From Methanoculleus bourgensis MS2 (lineage in GTDB: Archaea; Halobacteriota; Methanomicrobia; Methanomicrobiales; Methanoculleaceae): a stretch of DNA of 64,000 nt. Below the pieces are notes generated by a model. It saw only the letters and a list, made by a program, of their open reading frames with translations, ran no database searches and was not told where the DNA came from. Shown piece after piece: positions 5,926 through 22,398 of this stretch. Position numbers and translations under genes: made by a program. Position 1 is the stretch's first letter. The number at the start of each line of letters is the position of its first letter. The stretch lies in contig NC_018227.2 in the NCBI RefSeq assembly GCF_000304355.2, forward strand, positions 496,001-560,000. Direction: 5' to 3'.

Positions 5926-5959
5926 TTTAAATATATTGCCTGATGATTGCCCGCCCGTA
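5926..5959 (+). promoter_or_regulatory. TATA box and leaderless start of orphan tupA
   Basis: A very AT-rich block (5885-5937) ends in TTTAAATATA at 5926-5935, centred 28 bp before ATG 5959. That distance places transcription initiation at or next to the start codon. No Shine-Dalgarno is seen, consistent with a leaderless message. Confidence 0.55.
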
Positions 5960-6888
5960 TGACTCCGAGATCATGGGTGCCCCTGGTGGGCATCATGGTA
6001 GTACTCTTGGCCGCATCTGTCGTCGCCGTCCCGGCACAGGAGGCAGCGAACCCGGACGTGCTCCGGATAGCAACGACAACAAGCCTCTACGATACCGGCC
6101 TGCTTGACGAACTTGAGATGATGTACGAGAACACGTCCGGCGTGGACGTGCAGATCACCGCACAGGGAACGGGCCAGGCGCTCGATACCGCACGACGTGG
6201 CGACGTCGACCTGGTGCTCGTCCACTCGCCGTCGCTTGAGCAGGAGTTCATCGATGAAGGCTACGGCATCAACGAGCGGTGCTTTGCCTACAACAACTTC
6301 CTCATCGTCGGGCCGGAGTCCGATCCGGCGGGAATCGCGAACATGAGCCCCGTGGAAGCATTCAAGGCGATCTACATCGCCGGGACGAACAACACAGAGG
6401 GCGTGGCCTTTGTCTCCCGCGGCGATGACTCGGGCACGCACAACCGGGAGCAGCAGATCTGGGCGGCAGCCGGCTACAACTACACAGAGGACATCCAGGA
6501 CTCCGGGCCCTGGTACCTGGAGACCGGGAGCGGCATGGGTGAGACCCTGACCGTCGCGAACCAGAAGGATGCCTACACGCTCTCAGACATCGGGACGTAC
6601 CTCGCCTTCAAGGACCAGCTCAACCTTGTAGAGCTCGTGACCGAGGGCGACGATCTCCTGAACCGCTACAGCGCCATTTCAGTCAACCCGGAGCAGGTGC
6701 CGGGCGTCAACATCAATGAGGCCACCAACTTCACCAACTGGATCACCTCCAACGAAACCAAGGAGTTCATCGGGAACTTCGGCGTCGAAGAGTACGGCCA
6801 GCCGCTCTTTGTGCCGCTCTACGCACCTGAGTGTACCGAACCGCCGTTCAACTGCACCTGCGCAGAGCCGGTGAACGCAACAGCGTGA
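5959..6888 (+). CDS. tupA: Tungstate-binding protein TupA, orphan copy
   Basis: 309 residues: a hydrophobic signal segment (VPLVGIMVVLLAASVVAV) followed by a TupA-type periplasmic binding fold. RIATTTSLYDTGLL near the mature N-terminus carries the TTTS oxyanion-binding motif typical of TupA; ARRGDVDLVLVHSP and VSRGDDSGTHNREQ are other family signatures. Unlike the two other copies, the signal has no lipobox cysteine. The C-terminus has three cysteines in a PEC-x4-FNCTC pattern shared with the copy at 7059. It has no permease of its own; a hairpin separates it from the complete tupABC operon. It may deliver tungstate to that transporter. Confidence 0.9.
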   Translation: MTPRSWVPLVGIMVVLLAASVVAVPAQEAANPDVLRIATTTSLYDTGLLDELEMMYENTSGVDVQITAQGTGQALDTARRGDVDLVLVHSPSLEQEFIDEGYGINERCFAYNNFLIVGPESDPAGIANMSPVEAFKAIYIAGTNNTEGVAFVSRGDDSGTHNREQQIWAAAGYNYTEDIQDSGPWYLETGSGMGETLTVANQKDAYTLSDIGTYLAFKDQLNLVELVTEGDDLLNRYSAISVNPEQVPGVNINEATNFTNWITSNETKEFIGNFGVEEYGQPLFVPLYAPECTEPPFNCTCAEPVNATA

Positions 6889-6910
6889 ACCCGGGAGTGC
6901 AAAAACCCTG

Positions 6911-6938: not shown

Positions 6939-7020
6939 GGGGCACACCCCATCTTCAGGCCGGCGGGACCACTCTCTCCTCCCCTGTGGTTAACTGGACG
7001 CTGTTGACACCCCCGGCAGG

Positions 7021-7033
7021 ATAAATATTTATG
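7021..7033 (+). promoter_or_regulatory. TATA box of tupA2BC
   Basis: ATAAATATTTATG lies about 33 bp before the ATG at 7059, so the operon has its own promoter with little or no 5' leader. Confidence 0.5.
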
Positions 7034-7058
7034 GGTGTTTGTCATTTAGCGCGCTGCC

Positions 7059-8030
7059 ATGAAGACGAACGTAACTACTCTATCGGCCGGTGCTGTCCTG
7101 CTCCTTCTCGTCCTCGCCATCTTTGCGGGGTGCACGGGGACTGCGCCGGAGGGGAACGAGACGCCGGGCGCTACGACGACGGCCACACCCGCTGCCGGTG
7201 CGAACGTCATCCGGGTCGCCACCACGACAAGCCTTGAGAATACCGGACTGCTCGCGGAGCTCGAGCGGGTCTACGAGGGCGAGACCGGGGTTGACCTCCA
7301 GTTCATCGCCCAGGGGACGGGCCAGTCGCTCGATACCGCACGGCGCGGCGATGTGGACATGGTGCTCGTCCACGCCCCTGCGCTTGAAGAGCAGTTTGTA
7401 AATGACGGCTACGGGATCAACCCGCGCTGCATCGCCTACAACTACTTCATCATCGTCGGGCCGAAGTCCGACCCGGCGGGGATAGCGAACATGAGCCCCG
7501 TGGAAGCCTTCAAGAAGATCTACATCGCCGGGACGAACAACACGCCGGGCGTGGTCTTCGTCTCCCGGGGCGACAACTCAGGCACCCATAACCAGGAGAA
7601 GGCGCTCTGGAAGGAGGCGGGCTATGACTACGAGAAGGATATCCTGGACTCCGGGGCCTGGTACGTCGAGGCAGGCAAGGGCATGGGAGACACCCTGATC
7701 CTCACGAACGAGAAGAACGCCTACACGCTCTCTGATGAGGGTACCTATCTCTCGTTTAAGGACCGGCTGGCGCTGGTGCCGGTCATCGAGCAGGGTACGG
7801 AACTCATGAACCGTTACAGTGCGATCGCGGTCAACCCTGAAAAGTACCCGGATGTGAACGCGAAGGGGGCCGCGGACTTCATCAACTGGCTCATCTCCGA
7901 TGAAGGAAAGCAGCTCATCGGCGACTTTGGGAAGGCTGAGTTCGGGAAACCGCTCTTTGTGCCGCTCTACGCGCCCGAGTGCGCACAGCCGCCGTTCAAC
8001 TGCACCTGCGCAGAGCCGGTGACTGCATAA
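7059..8030 (+). CDS. tupA: Tungstate-binding lipoprotein TupA
   Basis: 323 residues. The signal segment ends in the lipobox IFAGC, so the mature protein is lipid-anchored on the outer face of the membrane, followed by a Thr/Ala/Pro/Gly-rich spacer. RVATTTSLENTGLL holds the TTTS tungstate-binding motif, and ARRGDVDMVLVHAP and VSRGDNSGTHNQE are conserved. The C-terminal PECAQPPFNCTC cysteine tail matches the orphan copy at 5959. It is the first gene of a tupA-tupB-tupC operon and would hand tungstate to the permease at 8092. Confidence 0.93.
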   Translation: MKTNVTTLSAGAVLLLLVLAIFAGCTGTAPEGNETPGATTTATPAAGANVIRVATTTSLENTGLLAELERVYEGETGVDLQFIAQGTGQSLDTARRGDVDMVLVHAPALEEQFVNDGYGINPRCIAYNYFIIVGPKSDPAGIANMSPVEAFKKIYIAGTNNTPGVVFVSRGDNSGTHNQEKALWKEAGYDYEKDILDSGAWYVEAGKGMGDTLILTNEKNAYTLSDEGTYLSFKDRLALVPVIEQGTELMNRYSAIAVNPEKYPDVNAKGAADFINWLISDEGKQLIGDFGKAEFGKPLFVPLYAPECAQPPFNCTCAEPVTA

Positions 8031-8091
8031 ACGCTCATCCTGAGGAGCCGGGAGATGTGGATGAGGTGATCAGAAAGGAGGGTGAGTTCGC

Positions 8092-8787
8092 GTGGTGAAC
8101 GGGAGCCCGATCATTGAGGGGTTCATCGAGGCCATCTACCTCATCATCACCCTCAATCCGCAGGTGGTCGAGATCACCATCCGCTCGCTCTACATCTCCC
8201 TCACCGCCACCCTCTTTGCCTCTCTGATCGCCCTGCCGCTTGGGGCGCTCATTTACTTCTACGACTTCCGGGGGAAGCATGCGGTCGTCTCCACGCTGCA
8301 GACGCTCTATGCGCTCCCGACAGTCATCGTGGGCCTGATCATGTTCCTGCTCCTCTCAAACATCGGCCCCTTCGGGTTCCTCCACCTCCTCTACACTCCC
8401 GGCGGCATGATCGTCACCCAGACGGTTCTCATCATACCGCTCCTGATGGGGCTGACGGTCTCGGCACTCTCCGGGATCGACCGGGATAAACGCTACACGA
8501 TCACGGCGCTCGGTGCAAGCAGGTTCCAGACGGTCACGACCATCATCGCGGAATCCCGGTTCGCGGTCATGTCCGGCGTCCTTCTGGGGTTCGGGCGGGC
8601 GATCTCCGAGGTGGGGACGGTGATGATCGTCGGCGGCAACATCCGCGGCGCCACCCGGGTTCTCACCACCGCGATCGCGCTCAATACATCGATGGCAAAC
8701 TACTCCGTATCGATTGCACTCGGGATCATTCTGCTCGGGGTGGCGCTCGGGGTGAACATCGTTCTCTCCCTCGTGCAACGGCGGTGA
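8092..8787 (+). CDS. tupB: Tungstate ABC transporter permease TupB
   Basis: 231 residues with about five membrane segments and the binding-protein-dependent permease loop (EAA-type region around ITALGASRFQTVTTIIAESRF). It forms the tungstate channel that couples TupA to TupC. A strong AGGAGGGTGA precedes adjacent GTG codons at 8092 and 8095; 8092 is preferred. It is 61 bp after tupA2 and 4 bp before tupC, which implies one transcript. It is similar throughout to the TupB at 20610. Confidence 0.93.
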   Translation: MVNGSPIIEGFIEAIYLIITLNPQVVEITIRSLYISLTATLFASLIALPLGALIYFYDFRGKHAVVSTLQTLYALPTVIVGLIMFLLLSNIGPFGFLHLLYTPGGMIVTQTVLIIPLLMGLTVSALSGIDRDKRYTITALGASRFQTVTTIIAESRFAVMSGVLLGFGRAISEVGTVMIVGGNIRGATRVLTTAIALNTSMANYSVSIALGIILLGVALGVNIVLSLVQRR

Positions 8788-8791
8788 TATC

Positions 8792-9868
8792 ATGGCGATT
8801 GTTGAAGCACAGAAGATCAGGAAGGTATACGGCAGCTTAGAGGTCCTGCACGACGTCGACCTCTCGGTCCGGGAGGGGGAGATCCTCGGGCTCATCGGCC
8901 CGAGCGGCTCCGGGAAGAGCACACTCTTACGGATCCTCGACCTGATCGAACCGCCGAGCGGCGGCGAACTCTCGATCTTCGGTATCGATACAGTAGGGGA
9001 ACGCGGCCGCTGGCTCGACCTCCGCCGCCGGATGGGGATGCTCTTCCAGAGACCGATCGTCTTTAACGCATCGGTCTACGACAACATCGCGATGGGGCTG
9101 CGCTACCGGGGAGCCCCTCGTGATGAGATCGACCGGAGGGTGAAGGAGGCGCTTGAGGCAGTCGGGCTCTCCCGCTACATCAGGAGCAGGGCAACCGACC
9201 TCTCGGGCGGCGAGCAGCAGCGGGTGGCGTTATCGAGGGTGCTCGTGACGGACCCTGAGATCCTCTTCCTGGACGAACCGACGGCGAACCTGGACCCGGG
9301 CTCGACCGCTACCATCGAGGCGATCGTGACCCGTCTGAACCGTGAGAGGGGGATAACCGTCCTGATAAGCACCCACGATCTGGCGCAGGGGCAGAGGCTC
9401 GCCCACCGTGTCGCGGTGATGATCGAGGGGACGGTCGCCCAGGCGGGCTCGCCCCGCGAGATCTTCCATGAACCAAAAGACCAGAAGATCGCCAGGTTCG
9501 TGGGGGTCCAGAACATCATCCACGGCCGGGTCGTCTCCCGGGAGGGGGGGCTCACCACGGTGGAGATGAAGGAGAGACGTATCGTCTCAAAGACCCCGCC
9601 GCCGGCAGAGGAGGTGGCGGTGGTTATCAGGGGCGAGGATATCTCCCTGCACCGGAGGGAACCAGGCTACGAGGAGGCGGAGAACCTCTTTCCCGCCAGA
9701 ATTACCAGTGTCGAGCCCATGGCGCCGTTCGTGAACGTGACCGTGGACTGTGGGTGCGCTCTCGTCGCGCTGGTGACCGCGAGGAGGGCAGAGGCTCTCG
9801 GGCTTCGCGCAGGCATGGATGTCTGGGTCTCCCTCCCGGCGAGGGTGGTCCACCTGGTCCCCCGGTGA
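8792..9868 (+). CDS. tupC: Tungstate ABC transporter ATP-binding protein TupC
   Basis: 358 residues. Walker A GPSGSGKST is at about 36-44, the signature LSGGEQQ at about 137-143, Walker B ILFLDEP at about 157-163, and the switch histidine follows in ISTHDL. A C-terminal regulatory extension of about 120 residues (from VGVQNIIHG onward) resembles the TOBE-like oxyanion-binding region of Mod/Tup/Wtp ATPases and may sense intracellular tungstate. It powers import through TupB and ends the tupA2BC operon. Confidence 0.93.
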   Translation: MAIVEAQKIRKVYGSLEVLHDVDLSVREGEILGLIGPSGSGKSTLLRILDLIEPPSGGELSIFGIDTVGERGRWLDLRRRMGMLFQRPIVFNASVYDNIAMGLRYRGAPRDEIDRRVKEALEAVGLSRYIRSRATDLSGGEQQRVALSRVLVTDPEILFLDEPTANLDPGSTATIEAIVTRLNRERGITVLISTHDLAQGQRLAHRVAVMIEGTVAQAGSPREIFHEPKDQKIARFVGVQNIIHGRVVSREGGLTTVEMKERRIVSKTPPPAEEVAVVIRGEDISLHRREPGYEEAENLFPARITSVEPMAPFVNVTVDCGCALVALVTARRAEALGLRAGMDVWVSLPARVVHLVPR

Positions 9869-9935
9869 GGAGCAGGGCGACCCGGGCCGTGCAGGACCGA
9901 TACCGTTACATCAGGCTGCCGTCAACAATCCAGGA

Positions 9936-10913
9936 GTGAAACTGCACGGGGTTAGCGGGAGGGGCGCCGAAGATATCAGGATAACGGTCTTTTGTGCCGG
10001 AAGCCTGACCGGGCCCTTTGAGAAGGTGAAGGCGGCGTTTGAAGTGGAGCACCCCGGTGTCACTGTCGTCCTTGAGCCCGGCGGCAGCGTGGAGATCATC
10101 AGGAGGGTGACCGGAAGCGGGAGGCCTGCCGATCTGCTCGCATCAGCAGACTACGCCCTCATCCCGGAGATGATGGTGCCGGAGCACGCCGACTGGTATC
10201 TTACGTTCGCAAAGAACCGGATGGTGCTCACCTACACGAACGAGAGCAGGTATGCGGACGAGATCACCGCCGGGAACTGGTATGATGTTCTCGCTCGTGA
10301 CGGTGTCAGGTGGGGTTTCTCTGACCCGAACTCAGACCCCTGCGGCTACCGCACCCCGATGGTGATCCAGCTCGCCGAGGGCTACTACGGAAACGATCAG
10401 ATCTTTGAGGACCTCGTCGTGGCCCACAGCAACATCACCGTAACAGAGGAGAACGGCACCTCCACGGTTCATGCCACCGATTCGGGCTCCGACGATACCA
10501 CGCTCTTCATCAGGCTGAAGGCCGACGACCTCGTCAGGATGGTCAGGTCGGGCGACCTCGATTATGCCTGGGAGTACCGGAGCGTTGCCGTGCAGAACGA
10601 CCTACTCTTCATCGAACTCCCCGAAGAGATCGACCTCTCGGCGGTAGAGTTCGCTGAGAACTACGCGACCGTCCAGACCGAGGCGAAGAAGGGCGACGGT
10701 ACCACGCTCTATGCGGGCGCCCCGATCGTCTACGGCGTGACCGTCCCGAAGAACGCAGAGCACCCCGACCTTGGTCTTGCATTCGTGGAGATGCTGGTCG
10801 GTGCCACCGGTCAGGAGATCCTCACTGCCGACGGCCAGCCCCCGATCATGCCTGCGGGAGGCTACGGCAGCGTCCCTGCCGGGCTCGAGCCGCTCGTTGC
10901 GGTGAAAGCCTGA
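9936..10913 (+). CDS. wtpA: Tungstate/molybdate-binding protein WtpA, no evident signal peptide
   Basis: 325 residues from the GTG at 9936. The body is a clear WtpA/ModA-type binding protein: FCAGSLTGPFEKVKAAFE, LEPGGSVEIIRRV, RPADLLASADY, ADWYLTFAKNRMVLTYT and GFSDPNSDPCGYR follow the family in order. WtpA binds tungstate and molybdate for WtpBC. Oddly, nothing hydrophobic precedes the domain: the residues before it are VKLHGVSGRGAEDIRI, and the upstream extension to 9819 is also hydrophilic. A missed start, a frameshift or loss of the signal are all possible. Confidence 0.88.
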   Translation: MKLHGVSGRGAEDIRITVFCAGSLTGPFEKVKAAFEVEHPGVTVVLEPGGSVEIIRRVTGSGRPADLLASADYALIPEMMVPEHADWYLTFAKNRMVLTYTNESRYADEITAGNWYDVLARDGVRWGFSDPNSDPCGYRTPMVIQLAEGYYGNDQIFEDLVVAHSNITVTEENGTSTVHATDSGSDDTTLFIRLKADDLVRMVRSGDLDYAWEYRSVAVQNDLLFIELPEEIDLSAVEFAENYATVQTEAKKGDGTTLYAGAPIVYGVTVPKNAEHPDLGLAFVEMLVGATGQEILTADGQPPIMPAGGYGSVPAGLEPLVAVKA

Positions 10914-10923
10914 AAACTCCCTC

Positions 10924-10929
10924 TTTTTT
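10924..10929 (+). terminator. T-run after wtpA
   Basis: Six consecutive T lie about 10 nt after the wtpA stop codon. It may cause partial termination between wtpA and wtpB. Confidence 0.35.
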
Positions 10930-10980
10930 CGAAGAAGTTATTCACGGGCACGTAGAACGTATATCAAGGAACATATCGAG

Positions 10981-11841
10981 ATGAAGACCGAGACGCTCTC
11001 TGGCGATAAGGGAGGGTTATGGCGGGCGGAGCGCCCGGGATGGCACACGGACCGGTGCATCCTCTGGTTCTGCATCATGGGTGCGGTGATCGTCGGAATC
11101 ACGGTGCTTGCGCTTGCAAACATTGCGATTACAGAGCTCGCCGACCCTGCCCACCTCTTTGAGGTGGCAGCATCCTCGGAGGTGATCGGGTCCATCCTTC
11201 TCACGTTCTGCGCGGGGGCAAACGCTGTCCTCCTCCTGGTGATCTTCGGAACCCCCCTCGCCTACGTCCTCGCCCGCTCCCGCCCCTCCCGCTTCAAGGA
11301 AGTCGTGGAGAGCGTCGTCGATATCCCGCTCATCCTGCCCCATACGGTTGCGGGCCTGCTTGTCTACCTCCTCTTCATGCGCCGTGGGTGGCTTGGAGCG
11401 CCGCTTGCGGAGATCGGACTTGCATTTGAGGACGCCTACCCGGGCACGGTGGTTGCCATGCTCTTTGTCGCCTCCCCGTTCTTCATCAACAGCATGCGGG
11501 AGGGGTTTGAGAAGGTGCCCGTCCACCTGGAGAACGTCGCCCGCACGCTCGGTGCCGGCACGTTCACCACCTTCCGCACGGTCACGCTCCCCTTAAGCCT
11601 CCGGCACATGTTCAACGGAGCCATCCTCGCCTGGGGGAGGGCAATTGGGGAGTTTGCCGCTGTCATCATGATCGCCTACTACCCGTTCATCATATCGACG
11701 CTGATCTATTACTCGTTCACGACAGACGGCATCCACACAAGCCGGAGCATTGCGTTCGTGGTCATTGTGATCAGCTTCGCGGTCTTCTACCTCCTCCGGC
11801 GGATGACCCGGTACCTGGGGAGATACGATGATCGAGTTTGA
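10981..11841 (+). CDS. wtpB: Tungstate/molybdate ABC transporter permease WtpB
   Basis: 286 residues with an N-terminal cytoplasmic extension of about 28 residues and then about six membrane segments. The coupling-loop region (VPVHLENVARTLGAGTFTTF, then TLPLS) is typical of ModB/WtpB permeases. It would form the channel used by WtpA-delivered oxyanions. It overlaps the ATPase gene wtpC by 14 nt, implying coupled translation. ATG 10981 is used; a shorter start at a downstream ATG would remove part of the extension. Confidence 0.9.
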   Translation: MKTETLSGDKGGLWRAERPGWHTDRCILWFCIMGAVIVGITVLALANIAITELADPAHLFEVAASSEVIGSILLTFCAGANAVLLLVIFGTPLAYVLARSRPSRFKEVVESVVDIPLILPHTVAGLLVYLLFMRRGWLGAPLAEIGLAFEDAYPGTVVAMLFVASPFFINSMREGFEKVPVHLENVARTLGAGTFTTFRTVTLPLSLRHMFNGAILAWGRAIGEFAAVIMIAYYPFIISTLIYYSFTTDGIHTSRSIAFVVIVISFAVFYLLRRMTRYLGRYDDRV

Positions 11842-12889
11842 CCAGGTCTCGCTCGCACTCGGCTCGTTCCGCTTGAACAACGTCAGCCTGACGATCAACC
11901 GGGGTGACTACTACTTCATCGTCGGGCCGTCGGGCGCGGGGAAGACCGTGATTCTTGAGGCGATTGCGGGCCTCCACCGGCCCAGGCGGGGCCGGGTTCT
12001 CCTGCGGGGCGAGGAGGTCACCGCCCTGCCCCCCGAGAAGCGGAGGGTCGCCCTCGTCTACCAGGACTACTCGCTCTTTCCCCACATGAGCGTCATCGAT
12101 AACGTCGGCTACGGTCTTCGGATGCAGGGGATGGGGAGAGCGGATGCCAGGCATGAGGTTGTCGGTCTCCTCGCAGAGTTCGGGATAGCCCACCTCGCGG
12201 ACCGCTACCCGGGAACCCTCTCGGGCGGCGAGCAGCAGCGGGTCGCACTCGCACGTGCCGTCGCGGTAAAGCCCGACATCCTCCTCCTCGACGAGCCGCT
12301 CTCTGCCCTCGATCCGGTTACGCAGGAGAAGTTCATCCTCGACCTGCAGCGGCTCCACCGGGAGGACGACCTTACCATCGTCCAGGTGAGCCACGCCCGC
12401 AGGGAAGCGCACCTGCTTGCCACCCGGATGGCGGTGATCATCGACGGGAGCCTTGTGGAGGAAGGAGAGGCTGACGTTGTGCTGAACAGACCCCGGAGCC
12501 GGGAGGTCGCCTCGTTCGTCGGGATAGAGAACATCCTGGATGGAGCTGTGGTGAGAAACGAGGACGGGCACGCGACGGTAGATCTCGGCGGGCAGGTCTT
12601 CGAGGCGGTGACTGATGCGCCGGTGGGTGAGGAAGTCACCCTCTGCATCAGGTCTGATGATATCGTCCTCCGGGTTCCCGGCTCAACCCGTTCCAGTGCC
12701 CAAAACACGATGACCGGGACGATTACCCGGGTTGTTGAGAACGGGCCTGTCGCCGAGGTGAAGGTGGACTGCGGCGTAGAGTTGACTGCGGTCCTGACGC
12801 GGCGGTCGGTGCGTGACCTCTTGCTCGCCCCCGGAACGCCTGTAACCCTCTCCATCAAAGCGACGGCGGTCCATGTCATCCGCGGGTGA
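11828..12889 (+). CDS. wtpC: Tungstate/molybdate ABC transporter ATP-binding protein WtpC
   Basis: 353 residues. Walker A GPSGAGKT is at about 33-40, the Q-loop in VYQDYSLFPHM, the signature LSGGEQQ, Walker B ILLLDEP, and D-loop SALDP. The C-terminal third (from VGIENILDG) is a TOBE-like region that in ModC/WtpC proteins binds the oxyanion and inhibits transport. It overlaps wtpB by 14 nt and completes the wtpABC set. Confidence 0.93.
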   Translation: MIEFDQVSLALGSFRLNNVSLTINRGDYYFIVGPSGAGKTVILEAIAGLHRPRRGRVLLRGEEVTALPPEKRRVALVYQDYSLFPHMSVIDNVGYGLRMQGMGRADARHEVVGLLAEFGIAHLADRYPGTLSGGEQQRVALARAVAVKPDILLLDEPLSALDPVTQEKFILDLQRLHREDDLTIVQVSHARREAHLLATRMAVIIDGSLVEEGEADVVLNRPRSREVASFVGIENILDGAVVRNEDGHATVDLGGQVFEAVTDAPVGEEVTLCIRSDDIVLRVPGSTRSSAQNTMTGTITRVVENGPVAEVKVDCGVELTAVLTRRSVRDLLLAPGTPVTLSIKATAVHVIRG

Positions 12890-12895
12890 GCGGTC

Positions 12896-13150: not shown

Positions 13151-13206
13151 GGGAGATCCTGTTCTTCATCTCTCTCGCCGGGCCTATGAACCTTGGGGCC
13201 GGCACC

Positions 13207-14355
13207 TCAGGACTGTGATTCCGGCCCGCTCCCCTGCCCTCTTCCTTTCTGCCACTGCAGGGCGTAGGCGAGGACCATCCCGATGATGAACGCGATGGTG
13301 AGGCCGATCACCAGCGTGAGGACGGCGATGGCTCCCGTGACCAGGTACGACTCGGTCTTTGCGCTGTGTTTCCCGAGTTCGATCGCCACGAAGACCAGGA
13401 GCGCGCCGAAGACCCCGAACGGTATGAGGGTCAGCACCTCCGGCGGGGCGAAGGCGATGGCGAAGATGAGGATGAAAATGCCGGCGATGATATTCGCCCC
13501 GCCGGTCCTTGCACCAAACCGGTACATGGCGGCAAGCCCCCCGGCGCCGTGGCACATGGGAAACCCTCCAAGCGGCGTGGAGATGAGGTTCATGGCGCCG
13601 ATGGTCCGGGAGAGCCGATCAGGGTCAACGCCTTTCTTCGGGAAGAGGTCGTAGGTGAGGAGCGATGTTGCGAGGATCGCGTTTGTCAGGGTGAGCGGTA
13701 TCTGCGGGAGTGCCAGATCCCAGGTGCCTGTTATGAAGTCTGCCGGTGCGGGGATGACGAGGCCCGGGATGGGTATCAGGCGGAACGGCGGCATCCCCTG
13801 CGTGGCGATGCCCGCGGCAAGCCCGATTCCGAGGACCATCAGGGCGGAGATGTCAGGCACCCGGGTGCGCTGCGACGCGATGAAGAAGATGACGATGATC
13901 GCGATCGCGAGCACCGCAAAGAGGACATCCGAGATGATATAGCCAAGCGATGTCTTCAGGAGGAGGAGCGCAAGCCCCGCCTGCACGCCCCGGACGACAC
14001 TCTTTGGGATCCGCTCCCCGATCCAGGTCATGCCGCCGACGAGCCCGAGCAGGAGGAAGAGCACGCCGACGATGATCCCGGACGCCACGATCTCGCCGCC
14101 GGAGAGTCCTTCGGCGATGACGATAGCGCCGATGGCCTTCATCGGCTCGATGGGGATCGGGAGGCGGTAGTAGAACCCGGCGATGATGTACCAGGCGGCG
14201 AGGAAGAGGAAGAAGTGGCTGACGTTCACGTCCGGGCAGACGATGGCAACCCCGAGCATGATGGGGAAGATGGTGCCGAAGTCGCCGACGGCTCCGGCGA
14301 TCTCCTCCAGGGTGATCCTGATGCCTCCTTCTCCGGTCCCGGTGTTCTCCGCCAT
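13207..14355 (-). CDS. MOT1-type molybdate/sulfate transporter
   Basis: 382 residues with about ten membrane segments. Family signatures are AGAVGDFGTIFPIMLG near the N-terminus and PLGGFPMCHGAGGLAAMYRFGARTGG in the middle, as in plant and algal MOT1 molybdate transporters of the sulfate-permease superfamily. A secondary, ion-coupled uptake of molybdate is inferred from the family and from the three Mo/W ABC transporters around it. ATG 14355 is chosen because AGAGAGGAGTC precedes it; the longer start at 14409 would run into the MscS gene. Confidence 0.85.
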   Translation of the reverse strand: MAENTGTGEGGIRITLEEIAGAVGDFGTIFPIMLGVAIVCPDVNVSHFFLFLAAWYIIAGFYYRLPIPIEPMKAIGAIVIAEGLSGGEIVASGIIVGVLFLLLGLVGGMTWIGERIPKSVVRGVQAGLALLLLKTSLGYIISDVLFAVLAIAIIVIFFIASQRTRVPDISALMVLGIGLAAGIATQGMPPFRLIPIPGLVIPAPADFITGTWDLALPQIPLTLTNAILATSLLTYDLFPKKGVDPDRLSRTIGAMNLISTPLGGFPMCHGAGGLAAMYRFGARTGGANIIAGIFILIFAIAFAPPEVLTLIPFGVFGALLVFVAIELGKHSAKTESYLVTGAIAVLTLVIGLTIAFIIGMVLAYALQWQKGRGQGSGPESQS

Positions 14356-14369
14356 GACTCCTCTCTGTC

Positions 14370-15323
14370 TTATGTTCCCGCTTCTTTTTGGAGGTTCTGG
14401 ATGGGGCATGTCGGGGTTTCTGGTACGGGTTCACCCTCCCATTCCTTCTTCTCAAGGAGATCCTCTGCCCTCAGCCGTTCGATGACGGTATCCAGGTACT
14501 CAGAGACGATCGCATCTTTCCTCGGGATCTGCCGGATCCAGACCCGCACCGTCAGCCTGACCCAATCCTCCTTGATCGACGAGATCTGCACCTTCGGCTC
14601 GAATAACGCAAGGCCGGGGCGGGGGAGGTCTGACGAGAGGCGTCCGATGTAGGGGAGGTCAAAGAGGCTCTGGACAGCGGACCGCTCGGCCGGTTCGACG
14701 TGGGGGAGGATCAGGGGATGGTCATGTGCGGCGCGAAGCGCTATCTCCTGCACCCGTTCGAGGTCCGCCGTGACCGGGACGGCGAGCGGGATCTGGACCT
14801 CAAGCAGCCCGGCCCGGGAGTAGTTGATGACCTTTGATGTTATGATACTCGAGTTCGGCGTGAGGACGAGGCCGCCGTCGAGGCCCTGGAGGATCGTCGT
14901 CGTGAGGGAGATATCCTGCACCTTGGAAAGCCCCGTCTCTGGTCTCCCGCTGACGATCACCCATTCCTCGAGCTGGACCGGGCGGTTGATCGTGATCAGG
15001 ACGCCTGCGATGACGTTCTGGATGATCTGGCGCGACGAGAACGCTACGACAATACCGAGGATACCAAGCGACGCCACAAAGGCTGTCAGGTCGAAGGCGA
15101 GGAGGTAGCGAGCGCTCGCGTAGATCCCGCCGATGGTGATGCCGTACTGCAGGACGGCCGCCGTCCACTTGGCTGTCCCGCGCGAGACCCGTCCCTCCAG
15201 CAACCGCCGGAGGAGCAGGTAGGCGAGGTTGCCGAGGAAGAGGAACCCGATAAAGGCGAAGAGGAACGCGAGAACCGCATCGAAGGATACCCCGGTGACG
15301 GGGACCGGAACGCTCTCCTGCAT
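14370..15323 (-). CDS. MscS-family mechanosensitive channel
   Basis: 317 residues: two to three N-terminal membrane helices, the pore-lining helix region (ASLGILGIVVAFSSRQIIQNVIAG), then the MscS beta domain (RPVQLEEWVIV and LTPNSSIITSKVINYSR) and a C-terminal alpha/beta domain. Such channels open on membrane tension and release solutes during osmotic downshift. It closely resembles the next gene, 39 bp upstream, so the pair arose by duplication. The region before ATG 15323 is pyrimidine-rich without a Shine-Dalgarno; TTAAT lies near 15350, suggesting a leaderless start. Confidence 0.9.
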   Translation of the reverse strand: MQESVPVPVTGVSFDAVLAFLFAFIGFLFLGNLAYLLLRRLLEGRVSRGTAKWTAAVLQYGITIGGIYASARYLLAFDLTAFVASLGILGIVVAFSSRQIIQNVIAGVLITINRPVQLEEWVIVSGRPETGLSKVQDISLTTTILQGLDGGLVLTPNSSIITSKVINYSRAGLLEVQIPLAVPVTADLERVQEIALRAAHDHPLILPHVEPAERSAVQSLFDLPYIGRLSSDLPRPGLALFEPKVQISSIKEDWVRLTVRVWIRQIPRKDAIVSEYLDTVIERLRAEDLLEKKEWEGEPVPETPTCPIQNLQKEAGT

Positions 15324-15362
15324 GTGGGAAAGAGTGAGAGGGAAGAGGATTAATCCCTTCCG

Positions 15363-16247
15363 TCAGGAGACCTCGGCCTTGACCGGGATATCCTCGGCCT
15401 GAAGACGCCTGAGGACCTCCTTCAGGTACCGGGAGGCGATCTCGTCCTTTCGGGGAATTTTGCTGATCCAGGCCCGCACTGTCAGTTTGATCCAGCCGTC
15501 GCTGACCGATGCGATGAGGACGGCGGGCTCGAAGTGCGCAAGGTCGGGGCGGTCGGCGCGGAGGCGCCTGATGTAGGGGAGGTCAAAGAGGCCTTGCGCC
15601 CCGGTTCGCCCGGCCGTGCTGATATGGGGGAGGATCTGGGGGTCGTCGAGTGCCACCGCGAGTGCGATCTCGCGCACCCGCGCAAGATCCGTGGCGGCCG
15701 GGACCGAGAGCAAGACCTGGATCTCTAAAAGCCCGCCCCGGGAGTAGTTGACGACCTTTGACGATATGATGCTTGAGTTCGGCATGAGGATGAGGCCGCC
15801 GTCGAGCCCCTGGAGGATCGTCGTCGTGAAGGAGATGTCGCGCACCTTACAGAGCCCTGTCGTCGGCCTCTCCCCGACAATTATCCACTCCTCAAGGTGG
15901 ACCGGGCGGTTGATCGTGATCAGGATGCCGGCAAGGACGTTCTGGATGATCTGGCTCGATGAGACGGCTACGACGATACCGAGGATACCGAGCGATGCGG
16001 CAACGGCCTTCAGGTCGAAGGCGAGGAGGTACCGGGCGCTCCCGTAGACCCCGGCAATGATGACCGCGTACTGCAGGATGGCCGCCGCCCACTTGGCAGT
16101 CCCGTGGGAGACCCGCCCGTCCAGCAACCGCCGGAGGAGCATGTATGCGAGGTTGCCGAGGAAGAGGAACGCGAGAAGGGCGAAGAGGAACACGAGGAAT
16201 GCGTCAAGTGACACCCCGCCGATGAGAGTTGGATCGCTCGCCTGCAT
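15363..16247 (-). CDS. MscS-family mechanosensitive channel, tandem paralogue
   Basis: 294 residues from the ATG at 16247, chosen because MQASDPTLIGGVSLDAFLVF aligns with the N-terminus of the neighbouring paralogue; the longer form from 16349 adds 34 hydrophilic residues. It has the same architecture: N-terminal helices, pore helix AASLGILGIVVAVSSSQIIQ, beta domain with RPVHLEEWIIV and LMPNSSIISSKVVNYSR. GGTTAACTC about 27 bp upstream may be its TATA box, giving a leaderless message. It releases solutes on hypo-osmotic shock by family inference. Confidence 0.9.
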   Translation of the reverse strand: MQASDPTLIGGVSLDAFLVFLFALLAFLFLGNLAYMLLRRLLDGRVSHGTAKWAAAILQYAVIIAGVYGSARYLLAFDLKAVAASLGILGIVVAVSSSQIIQNVLAGILITINRPVHLEEWIIVGERPTTGLCKVRDISFTTTILQGLDGGLILMPNSSIISSKVVNYSRGGLLEIQVLLSVPAATDLARVREIALAVALDDPQILPHISTAGRTGAQGLFDLPYIRRLRADRPDLAHFEPAVLIASVSDGWIKLTVRAWISKIPRKDEIASRYLKEVLRRLQAEDIPVKAEVS

Positions 16248-16395
16248 GCAGGAGAGAGGTGGGCGGGTGAGAGAGTTAACCCCTTCTCTACCGGTCCCGG
16301 ACCGGGGCATCGAATGTTCTTCATGCGCCCAGGGCTTGCCCCTTCGCAAGAGACCGTGTTCAGCCTCTTACGCGGCCTTGCATGGGTGTAATTGG

Positions 16396-17098
16396 CGGTT
16401 CTCCCCACGCACCAGACCCTCAAGCTATGGTGAAACGGCCCACTACTGGGCCATTTCATCTAATATTGCACGTGGCCTCCCATCACCTCTCGCGCTCTCG
16501 CGCGAAGCCTTGACGCCCGTGGGATTGTTACGCCATCCTTCGCGATCTTCGCGGCTTCGCGTGAGTCTTCAGTACCGGGAGGGGATAATGTCTCACGCGA
16601 AGAGCGCGAAGACGCGAAGTCCGTGTATCTCCTCCTAACCGGAACCTTTCGCGAGCTCCCACGTGCTTCCGCGCGAGACCGGCAATCGTTCCCACGCACC
16701 CTCAAGTTAAGATAAAATGGTCCATTACAGGATCATTGCATCTAATATTTCCCTGTGATTGTTGCGTCACGCAGAAGCACGCGGGAGAGCGCGAAGGGGA
16801 CTATACCGTCCAGCAACCGAACTTCGCGTCTTTCGCGCTCAACGCGAGAGACCGGCGATCACTCCAACGCACCCTCAAGTTAAGGTGAAACGGCCCACGA
16901 CCGTCTCTTCAAATTGTGCTTGAGTCACTATTGGAGCATTTCGTCTAATATTGTCCATGCAATACCACCTCACGCGAAGAGCGCGAAGACGCGAAGTCCG
17001 TGTAACTCCTCCCACCGGAACCCTTCGCGCCCTTCGCGGCTTCGCGTGAGGTGACGATCTGCACCAGAACCCGCAAGATAAGGTGAAATGCTCCACTA
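16396..17098. repeat. Array of GCGAAG-family MITE copies
   Basis: One remnant end (about 16396-16445) and three fuller units (about 16443-16726, 16727-16898 and 16926-17098). Each unit has one end like GGNCATTTCATCTAATATT and the other like CGCACCCTCAAGTTAAGGTGAAACGGCCCACTA split over both sides, around a core of GCGAAG facing CTTCGCG. The first unit has two successive cores. The units fill the whole space between the MscS pair and the gene at 17127, with no coding sequence of note. Confidence 0.75.
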
Positions 17099-17126
17099 TT
17101 ACGCGGCTCCTTAACGCCGGTTCCTC

Positions 17127-17486
17127 CTACTCCTGCCCCTCGCCTGCCGCGTATGCCTGCAGCGCCTGGAGAATCCCTGTACCCAGGACCTCCTCTGCGC
17201 GCTCCCTGTAGCGCTCCGCCATGAGTTTGAGGAGTTGCGCCGTCCCTGCCGCCGTGGTCGATATACCGACCCGTTCTGCGCGGTGGATCAGCCCGTCCCG
17301 CTCCATCGACCCAAACCGGGGCAGGACATAGTAGTGGGGGATACTGAGGAATTCTGCGAGTTTTCGGGTTGTAGGGAAACGTATGGAGATGCCGTCAGGA
17401 GAAAAACTGATAGTTACCTGCCGGTCTTCTTCGAGGAGGATCCGGATAGCCGCATCGATTATCTCGTCATGCTCATGGATGGACAT
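17127..17486 (-). CDS. Small winged-helix-like protein
   Basis: 119 residues of unassigned family. The N-terminal part (HEHDEIIDAAIRILLEEDRQ) and a central stretch (TTRKLAEFLSIPHYYVLPRF, then GLIHRAERVGISTTAAGTAQ) read as a winged helix-turn-helix with a recognition helix near residues 40-60 and a wing near 65-80, as in small archaeal regulators. DNA binding is an inference. It is 49 bp downstream of the gene at 17536 and probably cotranscribed, with a palindrome upstream of both, so it could be a local regulator. Confidence 0.6.
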   Translation of the reverse strand: MSIHEHDEIIDAAIRILLEEDRQVTISFSPDGISIRFPTTRKLAEFLSIPHYYVLPRFGSMERDGLIHRAERVGISTTAAGTAQLLKLMAERYRERAEEVLGTGILQALQAYAAGEGQE

Positions 17487-17535
17487 CTGATCACAGAAGT
17501 ACTGGCGTTCGGGGGGAAAAAGGGGGTCGGTATGG

Positions 17536-17769
17536 TTACGCCGCCTCTTTCTTCATCTCGCCCCGCTCTTCTTCGGGCATCTCCTCGAGGTAGACGATCT
17601 CCGCCCCGACATCCTTTGCAATCGCTTCGAGTTCGACCTTCCTGAAGTGGACGCTCTCCACCTTCAGGTGCTTGTTCTCACCCTGTTCTTCGACGACGGC
17701 GACAACACGGAACCGGGGCTGTTTCACGCCGGTACCGATCTTCTGGCGCTCTCGTGCATAGATCTTCAT
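17536..17769 (-). CDS. Conserved small protein of unknown function (77 aa)
   Basis: 77 residues, mixed charged: MKIYARERQKIGTGVKQP, a predicted beta strand RFRVVAVVEE, KHLKVESVHFRKVELEAIAKDV, and an acidic then basic tail. I do not recognise the family. ATG 17769 is chosen over the in-frame ATG at 17787 because GGGAGGTGAT lies 6 nt before it. It is divergent from the Mo-storage-like gene at 17865 across a palindrome. Confidence 0.7.
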   Translation of the reverse strand: MKIYARERQKIGTGVKQPRFRVVAVVEEQGENKHLKVESVHFRKVELEAIAKDVGAEIVYLEEMPEEERGEMKKEAA

Positions 17770-17792
17770 CGTTTCATCACCTCCCAACCAAC

Positions 17793-17814
17793 TGGTATAG
17801 CTGCTGATATACCA
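17793..17814. promoter_or_regulatory. Palindrome in divergent promoter region
   Basis: TGGTATA (17793-17799) and TATACCA (17808-17814) are perfect inverted repeats with an 8-nt spacer, centre to centre 15 bp. It lies just upstream of the leftward gene at 17769, overlapping its likely TATA region, and about 50 bp before the rightward Mo-storage-like gene. The size fits a dimeric winged-helix operator. Its function is inferred. Confidence 0.5.
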
Positions 17815-17864
17815 CGAAGTTACTTAATACTTTTGCTACTCATACTGTAAGAGGAACACTTACC

Positions 17865-18671
17865 ATGACTGAGCGAATCGAGTTAGGATCGAAGTTACGG
17901 GGCGAGAGCCTGGTCCGGCGGGGCCTGATGCGAGAGACCGCCAGAGTCCGGCAGATCAGGATCATGCCGGACCTGAACGTGGTCAAGATCGGCGGCCACG
18001 GTGTCATCGATTACGGGCGGAAGGTTATCTACCCGCTGGTCGAAGAGATCGGAGAACTCTCCCGGGACCACAAGATCCTGGTCGCCACCGGTGGTGGTGT
18101 CCGGGTGCGTCACATTCTCGACGTCGGGATCGACCTTGGCATGCCGACGGGGGTGCTTGCAGAACTGGCGGGCAAGGTCAGCGAGCAGAACGCGATCATG
18201 ATGTCCCTCCTCTTCTCGAAGTATAACGGTGTTCGGATCCACACCACCGACCTCTTAAACCTCCCCTCCCTCATATCGCTCGGCATGCTGCCGGTCGTGC
18301 AGGGCACCCCGCCCTACGGGCTCTACGAGCACCCGCCGAAACTCGGCAGCATCCCGCCGCACCGGACCGATACCGGGGCCTTCCTGATGGCCGAGGTCGT
18401 GGGTGCGAAGAACTGCATCCTCGGGAAGAACGTGGACGGTCTCTACACTGAAGACCCGTTTGCGAACCCCGACGCCGAGTTCATCGCAGATATCACAGCC
18501 GAAGAACTCCTGGAGATGAATCTAGAGGATATGGTGCTTGAACCGATGGCGGTCGAGCTGCTCCGGGACGCCGTTCACGTCAAAGAGATCAAGGTGGTGA
18601 ACGCTCATGTGCCCGGGAACATCACCAAGGCCATGAACGGTGAGCGTGTCGGCACCCTGATCCGGGCCTGA
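17865..18671 (+). CDS. Molybdenum/tungsten storage protein homologue (amino-acid-kinase fold)
   Basis: 268 residues. The sequence tracks the Azotobacter Mo-storage subunits MosA/MosB: LNVVKIGGHGVIDYG, ILVATGGGVRVRHILDVGIDLGMPTG, PPYGLYEHPPKLGSIPPHRTDTGAFLMAE, NVDGLYTEDP and VVNAHVPGNITKAMNGERVGTLIR. Those proteins form cage-like hexamers that use ATP to pack polyoxomolybdate or tungstate clusters. The UMP-kinase-like ATP fold alone could mean another kinase, but the RTDTGAF region and setting among tungstate transporters favour storage. A single gene is present, so a homo-oligomer is inferred. TTAATACT near 17822 may be its TATA box. Confidence 0.82.
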   Translation: MTERIELGSKLRGESLVRRGLMRETARVRQIRIMPDLNVVKIGGHGVIDYGRKVIYPLVEEIGELSRDHKILVATGGGVRVRHILDVGIDLGMPTGVLAELAGKVSEQNAIMMSLLFSKYNGVRIHTTDLLNLPSLISLGMLPVVQGTPPYGLYEHPPKLGSIPPHRTDTGAFLMAEVVGAKNCILGKNVDGLYTEDPFANPDAEFIADITAEELLEMNLEDMVLEPMAVELLRDAVHVKEIKVVNAHVPGNITKAMNGERVGTLIRA

Positions 18672-18756
18672 AAGCCCGGAGTCAACCCATTTTAATTAAT
18701 CCCGGAGATGTCTTCTTAAATCTTGTGTGCGGATCTGTAGAGGGGCGAACGATTAC

Positions 18757-19455
18757 ATGACCCTCTACCTTGGCATCGACGATACTGATACCCGCGAGTC
18801 CCGGGGGACCGGACGGCTCGCCCGCATGATTGCAGCAGAACTCGCCCGGTCATACGTGGTGACAGGGGTGACCCGGCACCAGCTCTTCATCCACCCGTCC
18901 ATCCCGTATACCTCGCAGAACAGTTGCGCGGTCATCCACATCCAGGATGCGGATAACGGGACAGGTGCCGACGTCTTCTCGGCCGCAAAGGAACTGATGC
19001 TCTCCGACTTCATCGAGGGGAGCGATCCCGGCATCTGCGTCGCCGCCGCCCGGGAGATCGGGAGTGACCTCCGCGGTTTCGGGTTCTCGGCGAAGAAGAG
19101 TGTCGTGACACAGGACCAGGCGCGGGCGCTTGCGAGGGCGGCAGGGGTCTGCCTCGAGGGGCTTGGCGGCACCGAAGACGGCGTGATCGGTGCGCTCGCC
19201 GGCATCGGCCTTGCCGCATCCGGAAACGACGGCCGGTTCGTCGTTAAGGGAGCGACCCGGAGCCTTCACGGCACCCAGACAGTCGCCGCAATCCTCGCCT
19301 CAGGCGTCGACCAGGTCATGACGCGCGATGGCACGGCGATCGACAAGGGTCTCGTGGCGCTCAAGAAGTTCCCAAAGCCCGCCTTCATCGGGGGGAAGGC
19401 GGTCCTCTTTGTCGAGCCCGACGGCGATCTATACCGCGATATCGTGGTCGGGTGA
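18757..19455 (+). CDS. GIDDTD-domain protein (TiaS-like N-terminal domain)
   Basis: 232 residues from ATG 18757. The N-terminal YLGIDDTDTRESRGTGRLAR matches the GIDDTD signature of the kinase-like domain of TiaS, the archaeal tRNA-Ile2 agmatinylcytidine synthetase. TiaS itself is much longer and ends in a zinc ribbon; both that and the ferredoxin-like middle are missing, so this is a stand-alone relative of unknown role. GAGGGG 12 nt upstream is a distant ribosome binding site. It sits between the storage-protein gene and a tupABC operon, so a role in metal-oxyanion use is possible but unproven. Confidence 0.75.
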   Translation: MTLYLGIDDTDTRESRGTGRLARMIAAELARSYVVTGVTRHQLFIHPSIPYTSQNSCAVIHIQDADNGTGADVFSAAKELMLSDFIEGSDPGICVAAAREIGSDLRGFGFSAKKSVVTQDQARALARAAGVCLEGLGGTEDGVIGALAGIGLAASGNDGRFVVKGATRSLHGTQTVAAILASGVDQVMTRDGTAIDKGLVALKKFPKPAFIGGKAVLFVEPDGDLYRDIVVG

Positions 19456-19526
19456 GGGTGGGAGGTTCCTCCCGGGAGGGGGCTTCCGCCCCATCTCCCA
19501 GCAAATCCATTTAAGTTCAGCATTTT

Positions 19527-19582
19527 TTAACTACTTTTGTTTAACTGTTTAACTCTCGATATAAAACTATCACATTTAATTA
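19527..19582 (+). promoter_or_regulatory. Promoter region of second tupABC operon
   Basis: TTAACT occurs three times (19527-19532, 19541-19546, 19549-19554) upstream of AT-rich TATA candidates (GATATAAA at about 19558, and TTTAATTAT at about 19574-19582, some 30-38 bp before the start). The repeats could bind a regulator; this is inferred from position. Confidence 0.4.
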
Positions 19583-19611
19583 TCTGAAGTCCGATACTTG
19601 AATTGAACGTT

Positions 19612-20544
19612 ATGAGAATACGAACCCTTTTTGCCGTTGCGACCGTCATGGTCGCTCTCCTGCTGATCTGCGGGTGTACCGGGACGACACAGCCCGATAC
19701 TCCTGTCGATACTGAGAAGCAGCAGCTGCGTATCGCCACGACGACCAGTCTTTATGACACCAAACTTCTTGACCGCCTCAGCGCGATATTTGAAGAGGAG
19801 CACAACGCCGAGGTGCTGATTGTCTCTGCCGGAACCGGCAAGGCAATCGAGTACGGGCAGCGGGGCGACGTCGACGTCCTGATGGTGCATGACCGTGCGC
19901 GTGAAGATGTCTTCCTCGCTGACGGCTACGGGACCAACCGGCGTGTCTTTGCCTACAACTACTTCATCATCGTAGGACCGGAGTCCGACCCGGCAGCCAT
20001 CAAGGGCCTGCAGCCCGAAGAGGCGTTCACTGCCATCCGTGAGAAGGGAATGGCCGGTGATGCGGACGTAATCTTTGTCTCACGCGGCGACGCCTCGGGC
20101 ACACACTCCAAGGAGAAGGCTATCTGGAAGGGCGCCGGATTCAACTACTCCACTGACGTGCAGGGCTCCGGCGACTGGTACCAGGAGGCCGGGACGGGCA
20201 TGGGTGCGACCCTCTCGATGACCAACGAGAAGCAGGCCTACGCCCTCTCTGACATCGGCACCTACCTCGCTTACAAGGGCGACCTTGACCTCGTGACGCT
20301 CGTGGACGAGGGCGACATCCTGCTCAACGTCTACTGTGCCATGCAGATCAACCCTGAGAAGTACCCCGACATCAACAGCACCATCGCCAAGGACTGGATC
20401 AACTTCATGATCTCTGACGATGTGCAGAAGGAGATCGCCTCCTTTGGTGTCGACCAGTACGGCCAGCCGCTCTTCTACGCCGCCCAGGACGACTGGGAGA
20501 AGATCGGCGTAACCCTGGCTGAAGTGACGGACCCGGTTCTGTGA
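19612..20544 (+). CDS. tupA: Tungstate-binding lipoprotein TupA
   Basis: 310 residues. A signal segment ends in lipobox LICGC, followed by a short polar spacer and RIATTTSLYDTKLLD with the TTTS motif. YGQRGDVDVLMVHD, VSRGDASGTHSKEKA and SMTNEKQAYALSD follow the family. It lacks the C-terminal cysteine tail of the two copies near 6-8 kb and is clearly more divergent from them, so it is not a recent duplicate. ATG 19612 is preferred to TTG 19603 because it begins the signal peptide. It opens the second tupABC operon. Confidence 0.92.
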   Translation: MRIRTLFAVATVMVALLLICGCTGTTQPDTPVDTEKQQLRIATTTSLYDTKLLDRLSAIFEEEHNAEVLIVSAGTGKAIEYGQRGDVDVLMVHDRAREDVFLADGYGTNRRVFAYNYFIIVGPESDPAAIKGLQPEEAFTAIREKGMAGDADVIFVSRGDASGTHSKEKAIWKGAGFNYSTDVQGSGDWYQEAGTGMGATLSMTNEKQAYALSDIGTYLAYKGDLDLVTLVDEGDILLNVYCAMQINPEKYPDINSTIAKDWINFMISDDVQKEIASFGVDQYGQPLFYAAQDDWEKIGVTLAEVTDPVL

Positions 20545-20609
20545 GCCGGTCTCTTCACTCCAATCCCTACCCATTTTTCCCCCTGGCAAACCACAATTAG
20601 GAGCAGAGC

Positions 20610-21311
20610 ATGTACGAGATCATCGAGGGATTTCTGGAGGCGGTCGAGCTCATCATCACGCTTGACCCCGACGTGATGGCTATCTCTGCAAGGAGCGTCA
20701 TCATCTCATTCACCGCAACCATCTTCGCCACCATGATCGCCGTCCCGCTCGGCGCCGCGATCAACTTCGGCACGTTCCGCGGGAAAAAGAGCCTCATCAA
20801 TCTGATCCAGACCCTCTACGCTCTGCCGACGGTCATCGTCGGACTCCTCATATTCCTGCTGATATCCCGTGTTGGGCCGTTTGGGTTTATGCGGCTGCTC
20901 TTCACCCCGACCGCGATGATCATCGCACAGACGGTGCTTGTCCTGCCGATCATGACCGGGCTCACGATCTCTGCGCTCTCGGGGGTCGATCCGGTCATCA
21001 GGGATACCCTCCACTCGCTTGGGGCGACACGTCTCCAGTTTCTCGTAAACATCATGAAGGAAGCGCGGTTTGCGATCCTTGCGACCGTCGCGGTCGGGTT
21101 TGGGCGGGCGATATCAGAGGTCGGGGCGGCGATCCTGGTCGGCGGCAACATCATGGCGTCGTCCTTCATGAGTTCGACCCGTGTGCTGACAACGGCGATA
21201 TCCCTTGAGACATCGATGGGAAATATCCCTAAGTCCATCGCGCTCGGTATCATCCTTCTCGTGATCGCTCTCGGCGTCAATCTCATCATAACCACGATAC
21301 AGCACCGGTGA
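20610..21311 (+). CDS. tupB: Tungstate ABC transporter permease TupB
   Basis: 233 residues, about five membrane segments, with the permease coupling region LHSLGATRLQFLVNIMKEARF. It aligns end to end with the TupB at 8092, including YALPTVIVGLLIFLLISRVGPFGF. TAGGAG lies 6 nt upstream of ATG 20610. It is 65 bp after tupA and 4 bp before tupC. It forms the membrane channel of this tungstate importer. Confidence 0.93.
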   Translation: MYEIIEGFLEAVELIITLDPDVMAISARSVIISFTATIFATMIAVPLGAAINFGTFRGKKSLINLIQTLYALPTVIVGLLIFLLISRVGPFGFMRLLFTPTAMIIAQTVLVLPIMTGLTISALSGVDPVIRDTLHSLGATRLQFLVNIMKEARFAILATVAVGFGRAISEVGAAILVGGNIMASSFMSSTRVLTTAISLETSMGNIPKSIALGIILLVIALGVNLIITTIQHR

Positions 21312-21315
21312 TCCC

Positions 21316-22398
21316 ATGATTGAACTTATCGACGTCTCAAAGAGGTTTGGTGATACGGTGGTGCTTCGCGGCGTCACCGCGCGGGTCGAGCGTGGAGAGA
21401 TCTTTGCGGTCATCGGGCCGAGCGGGTCCGGGAAGTCGACCCTGCTGCGTCTCATCAACCTTCTCGACAGACCGGGGGGAGGAAAGATCCGGGTCAACGG
21501 TGTCGACATCCACGCCGAGAAGGAGCAGCGTCTCCGGATCCGCCGGATGATGGGGATGGTCTTCCAGAAACCCGCCGCTTTCAACTCAACCGTCTACGAA
21601 AACATTGCAGTCGGTCTCAGGTTCCGGGGGACGGGTGAGGGTGTGATCCGCGAGAAGGTCAGGGACGCCCTCGATGTGGTCGGGCTTGCCGGCTACGAGG
21701 AGCGGAGAGCGCGGACGCTCTCGGGCGGGGAGATGCAGCGGGTGGCTCTTGCGCGGGCGATGGTGATCGAGCCGGAGGTCCTGCTGATGGACGAGCCGAC
21801 CGCGAACCTCGACCCGGTCTCGGTCGGGATGATCGAGGAACTGGTGCTCCGCATCAACCGCGACCTCGGCACGACGATCGTGATCTCGACCCATGATATG
21901 TACCAGGGGCAGCGGCTCGCCCACCGGATCGGGGTGCTGATGGATGGTGCGTTTGCGCAGGTAGGGACGCCCCGGGAGGTCTTCACCGTGCCTGCGAGCC
22001 GGGAGGTTGCGCGGTTCGTCGGTATCGAGAATATCATCGAAGGGGTCGTTGTGGCCGCCGGGAACGGCAAATCCGCCATCGATGTCGGCGGCATCCCCAT
22101 CCGGGCGGTATCGCCGCTTCCCCCGGGGGAGGATGTCTGCCTCTGCATCAGGTCCGAGGACCTGCGGATCGTGCAACCGGATGGGGGAGGTGTCCCCGGT
22201 GGGAACAGCCTCCCCGGCACCGTGACGTCTATTGCGCCGCGCGGCCCGTTCAGCAGGGTGACGGTCGACTGCGGGTTTGTGCTCTCGTCCATCCTCTCGT
22301 GGAAGGCGGTGGACAGTCTGGGTATCAGGGAAGGCAGCCGGGTCGTTGTTTCGTTTGCGCCTGAGGCGGTCCACGTCGTCGGGGCGGCGCAGGGCTGA
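21316..22398 (+). CDS. tupC: Tungstate ABC transporter ATP-binding protein TupC
   Basis: 360 residues. Walker A GPSGSGKST near residues 34-42, signature LSGGEMQ, Walker B VLLMDEP, D-loop ANLDP and H-loop ISTHDM are all intact. The C-terminal part from VGIENIIEG is a TOBE-like regulatory region as in the TupC at 8792. It energises tungstate import through the TupB encoded just upstream. Confidence 0.93.
   Translation: MIELIDVSKRFGDTVVLRGVTARVERGEIFAVIGPSGSGKSTLLRLINLLDRPGGGKIRVNGVDIHAEKEQRLRIRRMMGMVFQKPAAFNSTVYENIAVGLRFRGTGEGVIREKVRDALDVVGLAGYEERRARTLSGGEMQRVALARAMVIEPEVLLMDEPTANLDPVSVGMIEELVLRINRDLGTTIVISTHDMYQGQRLAHRIGVLMDGAFAQVGTPREVFTVPASREVARFVGIENIIEGVVVAAGNGKSAIDVGGIPIRAVSPLPPGEDVCLCIRSEDLRIVQPDGGGVPGGNSLPGTVTSIAPRGPFSRVTVDCGFVLSSILSWKAVDSLGIREGSRVVVSFAPEAVHVVGAAQG

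Follow-up and report, generated by a model that had tools for sequence, protein, structure and literature searches.

The gene at 17865..18671 on the forward strand of a 64,000-nucleotide stretch of the Methanoculleus bourgensis MS2 genome (referred to below as the window) encodes a MoSto-family protein, a full-length relative of the molybdenum storage protein subunits MosB and MosA. One-gene MoSto proteins of this kind constitute a family spanning two domains of life. The current analysis has also revealed a neighbouring gene for a partner protein of 77 residues and an operator-like site common to both genes, which the original prediction of a Mo-storage homologue had missed.

Sequence, fold and residues of the MoSto-like protein

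The open reading frame at 17865..18671 starts with ATG and encodes 268 residues, and the opposite strand across it is interrupted by stops. All three landmark motifs of MosA and MosB quoted in the original prediction are found in its product. Searches of the PDB sequences exclude a chance match, as the product matches MosB (2ogx_B; 4e-64, 220 bits) over 263 of its 268 residues and MosA (2ogx_A) at 2e-50 and 175 bits; the best UMP kinase follows at 5e-11 and 46 bits. The sequence identity with MosA and MosB of Azotobacter vinelandii is 41-43%, the MosA sequence used in the comparison being identical to 2ogx_A over 276 residues. The AA_kinase family of Pfam has been assigned to the protein (1.2e-25), and a search of NCBIfam returned no MoSto model. 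The AF2 model has the amino-acid-kinase fold (pLDDT 81, pTM 0.82), with weak regions at the N-terminal arm (1-25) and the insert (151-163). Compared with PDB structures, it matches MoSto chains at ranks 1-15 (E 2e-25 to 8e-23), and the UMP kinases come after them at 6e-15.

The gene is the sole MoSto-like gene of the 2,789,774-base genome, as had been predicted; the second match (E 6.6e-4, 20 bits) is the UMP kinase gene. Since there is no paired gene for a second subunit, the protein is placed as a variant of the MoSto family and not as MosA or MosB. A homo-oligomer of six identical subunits is plausible for the product.

Residues were compared in an alignment comprising 38 rows of the query clade, 9 one-gene rows of Desulfobacterota, 4 paired-gene rows, MosA, MosB and 3 UMP kinases. 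The motif GxRxRH is invariant in the MoSto-like rows; R80 is invariant across all of them and different in UMP kinases, R82 is common to both groups and H83 is found in MoSto only. The query keeps the N-terminal arm and the MoSto-specific insert (about 149-163), both of which are missing in UMP kinases. K41 and K188, equivalent to K42 and K189 of MosB, are kept in 38/38 clade rows; MosA has a Glu at the position equivalent to K188, and K42 of MosB has been mutated in PDB 6ris ('Kb42S'). From these residues the ATP site is probably beta-like and active. T168/D169 and the KxGG loop are common to the query and the UMP kinases. The UMP-site Asp of archaeal UMP kinases is replaced by Ala99, and judging by this alignment the UMP site appears to have been lost.

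Met149 of MosB, the gate residue of the A. vinelandii protein, corresponds to Thr148 of the query; this position is Thr in 38/38 clade rows and Met or Ile in the Desulfobacterota rows. The covalent cluster ligands E129 and H156 of MosA, the latter mutated in PDB 6h6w, correspond to H126 and G152. MosB also lacks both ligands, and as they are a feature of the alpha subunit their absence gives no verdict on family membership. With E129/H156 of MosA and Met149 of MosB lost, cluster chemistry or binding and gating must differ from those of Azotobacter. The original prediction had looked to the pocket residues, and these are retained in part: the beta-type ATP-site residues are kept, and E129/H156 and Met149 are replaced.

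Phylogeny and the Mo/W import island

The query and the other MoSto-like proteins, 51 in all, are split at 99/99 from three UMP kinases, one of them that of E. coli, in a tree built by maximum likelihood. The earlier claim of a Mo-storage homologue and not a UMP kinase is thus borne out by tree, sequence, structure search and residues alike. In the tree without outgroup, the query clade of 32 rows has a branch support of 100/99 and occurs in 100% of bootstrap trees. It includes Methanomicrobiales, other Halobacteriota, Borrarchaeota (Asgard archaea), Geobacter, Pelobacter and Anaeromyxobacter. The paired-gene types together with MosA and MosB form another group (98/97). Forced grouping of the query clade with MosB is rejected marginally (p-AU 0.04), and with MosA it is not rejected (p-AU 0.098); long branches lead to MosA and MosB, and the root of the MoSto tree is insecure. 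On the best tree the query falls in the separate one-gene clade and would not be an orthologue of either MosA or MosB.

Methanospirillum-like loci (L158, L159) carry the unit of partner and MoSto genes in tandem duplicate, and both of their MoSto copies share about 70% identity with the query. On plasmids of Azospirillum (L128:6175-6987), the annotation of MosB reads uridine kinase or UMP kinase, and that of MosA molybdenum storage protein.

Tungstate importers had been reported around the gene, and they are indeed part of an oxyanion-import island extending from 5947 to 22398 in the window. The island comprises an extra TupA-like binding protein (5947..6888, +; NCBIfam TupA 211 bits, under cut-off), a first TupA-TupB-TupC set (7059..9868, +; TupA 212 and TupB 162 bits, under cut-offs), a WtpA-WtpB-WtpC tungstate importer (9819..12889, +), a MOT1-type molybdate transporter (13207..14409, -; Pfam MFS_MOT1 3.7e-54), the MoSto gene and a second TupA-TupB-TupC set of a tungstate-type ABC importer (19603..22398, +; TupA 180 and TupB 159 bits, under cut-offs). 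WtpA scores 392 bits, over the NCBIfam cut-off of 355, with WtpB (238 bits) and WtpC (358 bits) both under theirs; the ATPase of the second Tup set scores best to WtpC. Two related genes in tandem at 14370-16349 (-), named by eye as MscS-type channel-like, also lie inside the island, and this pair recurs at other Methanoculleus loci.

Within 10 kb of MoSto in 80 loci from named genomes, genes for TupC-like proteins (56), TupB (49), TupA (45), MOT1 (38), FdhA (13) and MoeA (9) have been found, counts which are lower bounds because some of the loci are short. The gene order is different in Asgard archaea and Desulfobacterota, and the linkage to Mo/W genes is therefore not only inherited synteny.

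A GIDDTD protein encoded at 18757..19455 (+) is a distant relative of the TiaS kinase domain and methanogenesis marker 11 (TiaS_TCKD 21.8 bits, sub-threshold); in L034 a homologue reaches 54 bits against marker 11, also sub-threshold. Of about 104 loci scanned, 32 have the GIDDTD gene near MoSto or the small partner gene, among them loci of Pelobacter and Desulfobacterota, in which its distance to the small gene can be about 225 bases.

The 77-residue partner, the operator-like site and the regulator

The small partner protein of 77 residues, belonging to no recognised family, is encoded at 17536..17769 (-), divergently from the MoSto gene, with a Shine-Dalgarno-like GGAGGTGAT immediately upstream of its ATG at 17769; the label S83 refers to this protein taken from an upstream start. 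The two genes are linked in 71 of the 80 loci. Searches of Pfam (to E 10), NCBIfam and PDB (sequence and profile) gave no significant match to the partner, and its AF2 model (pLDDT 77) has no match among PDB folds, MosA included, with Foldseek. Its relatives share the motifs KIYVRERxKVGxGVKQPRFR and HFRKxELEQIA, and R6, R8, P18, A24 and H41 are invariant in 27 diverse sequences.

Among 150 genomes of Methanomicrobiales, 93 encode both genes, none MoSto alone, one the partner alone and 56 neither, so that the partner is present in 93/93 MoSto genomes; the Fisher value of 8e-41 overstates this evidence because the genomes are related. Both genes are jointly absent from some members of genera that possess them, as in G063, G088 and G132 of the query's genus. 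The partner is likewise present in 49/49 MoSto genomes among 295 of Halobacteriota, and in a sample of 247 Desulfobacterota genomes it accompanies 15/15 one-gene MoSto genomes vs 0/3 paired-gene ones. A separate panel of MoSto-negative genomes contained it in 0/19.

The sole Methanomicrobiales genome with the partner and no MoSto (G056) is 62% complete, and in Halobacteriota the same is seen in three incomplete genomes of one genus. G168, G177 and G191, which have the partner without MoSto, are 70-85% complete; with this low completeness, the stops in G177 and a regulator match in G168 that is fragmentary only, they look like remnants or gaps. The partner gene of G177 (G177:C51:17816-18019) has two in-frame TAG codons and is possibly a decaying remnant or recoded. 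At L160 the partner is directly upstream of MoSto with both on one strand.

Three genomes of a single class encode distant relatives of the partner upstream of moaA, and also of moaC and mogA, moaC having been read by eye; the one checked of the three, G561, has no MoSto match in the genome. Among these relatives, the one at L181:1720-1965 lies directly upstream of moaA in a genome lacking a MoSto match, and G797 and G798 show the same arrangement. The location at moaA is a tie between the partner family and the supply of Mo/W cofactor that does not depend on MoSto. This previously undescribed small protein probably works with MoSto.

The region between the partner and MoSto genes contains, at 17784..17811, the operator-like sequence CCAACCAACTGGTATAGCTGCTGATATA, which repeats the conserved palindrome ATACCARYTGGTWTA in degenerate form. 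A search of the window for the palindrome gave two matches with three mismatches vs 0.09 expected. A scan of 100 MoSto loci (1.58 Mb) gave 45 exact strand-hits of ATACCARYTGGTWTA, a count in which a palindromic site may appear once per strand. Of these, 42 are found no more than 200 bases upstream of MoSto, and the remaining three are upstream of the small partner gene; no exact copy is at a transporter gene in the loci scanned.

Downstream of the small gene and on the same strand, a putative winged-helix regulator of 119 residues is encoded at 17127..17486 (-) and is conserved in 61 of the 80 loci. Its profile weakly matches winged-helix proteins including repressors of the DtxR family (E 0.002-0.004), and Pfam and NCBIfam gave no match to it. 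Motif and regulator tend to occur together (p 0.002, with no correction for kinship), and we infer that the regulator binds ATACCARYTGGTWTA.

Possible function and its alternatives

A role of MoSto linked to nitrogenase was considered and rejected. The nifD gene was not found in the query genome, and it is present in 23 of the 150 Methanomicrobiales genomes with no association to MoSto (11/82/12/45 for both, MoSto only, nifD only and neither; p 0.16). In methanogens the users of Mo and W are likely to be pterin enzymes, namely formate and formylmethanofuran dehydrogenases.

We consider it probable that the query is a one-gene Mo/W store feeding such pterin enzymes, in the form of an ATP-loaded homo-oligomer acting with the putative 77-residue partner. 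Six identical subunits would form the cage, and a beta-type ATP site on each would drive molybdate or tungstate inside, where the metal may be kept as oxo-clusters. The store would feed molybdopterin and tungstopterin enzymes, such as the two dehydrogenases, and not nitrogenase. The 77-residue protein may be a small accessory subunit or a factor for unloading towards cofactor synthesis, the latter being slightly preferred with less certainty.

It is very improbable that the protein is an enzyme of the amino-acid-kinase superfamily that phosphorylates UMP or another small molecule and resembles MoSto in looks only. It does share with UMP kinases (PyrH, archaeal TIGR02076) the fold, reflected in the AA_kinase assignment, and some of the ATP site, namely T168/D169 and the KxGG loop, and the MosB gate position is taken by Thr, a polar residue. 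However, UMP kinase models score far under the cut-off (66 vs 158 bits), the genome has a separate UMP kinase, the arm, the insert and R80/H83 belong to MoSto only, and the gene neighbourhood is that of Mo/W genes. UMP kinase identity as such was rejected on the score, the tree, the residues including Ala99 in place of the UMP-site Asp, and the structure search. An ATP-driven sensor or buffer of molybdate or tungstate that regulates import, in place of a bulk store, also seems unlikely. The operator common with the small gene, the regulator gene, the linkage to transporters and the loss of the MosA cluster ligands would suit this role; it is opposed by the signature of the cage family, by the retention of the beta-type pump site and by the occurrence of exact operator copies, in the scanned loci, at the MoSto-partner pair only and not at the transporters.

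Within the storage reading, the 77-residue protein might take the structural place of MosA as the second subunit of a hetero-oligomer, and not be an unloading factor, a possibility to which we give some weight while doubting it. Its strict co-occurrence with MoSto, and its presence with one-gene types and absence from the three paired-gene genomes, are in keeping with a subunit; the distant relatives upstream of moaA and the lack of a sequence or fold match in PDB, MosA included, speak against it. The broader proposal, which we hold at about even chances, is that a one-gene homo-oligomeric Mo/W store unrelated to nitrogen fixation is widespread among anaerobes of both domains, archaea and bacteria, and works with a 77-residue protein dedicated to it. 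This protein would represent a new family and serve as second subunit or as unloading factor, and the system would be controlled through its own operator by a winged-helix regulator, possibly one that senses the metal.

The query resembles Azotobacter vinelandii MoSto (PDB 2OGX, 4F6T, 6RIS) in its fold, N-terminal arm, insert, GxRxRH motif and lysines of the MosB K42/K189 type. Unlike the two-subunit (alpha-beta)3 cage of Azotobacter, it is the product of one gene in a separate clade, with Thr for the Met149 gate, E129/H156 of MosA lost, a co-occurring 77-residue partner and no tie to nitrogenase. A study of 2019 regarded the Azotobacter storage protein as unique, the databases being without known homologues (PMC6448029). 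None of the papers searched connects storage proteins for Mo or W to methanogens, and nothing useful was found on MoSto in Geobacter or methanogens. Judging by the methods of the paper on it, Tub of Eubacterium limosum is not known to be an amino-acid-kinase cage. Tub is a tungsten storage protein, studied among TOBE-domain proteins, for which the storage of W in an anaerobe has been shown as it is here proposed for the query (PMC11980592).

The query family suggests what the one-gene form of a two-subunit cage looks like, and the co-occurrence of the partner points to storage of the metals outside nitrogen fixation, by a system that has an undescribed part. The partner protein is a direct experimental handle and, should one-gene forms prove unable to load or unload by themselves, may be the missing piece. 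The MoSto family suggests how anaerobes buffer scarce Mo and W for their formate and CO2 enzymes.
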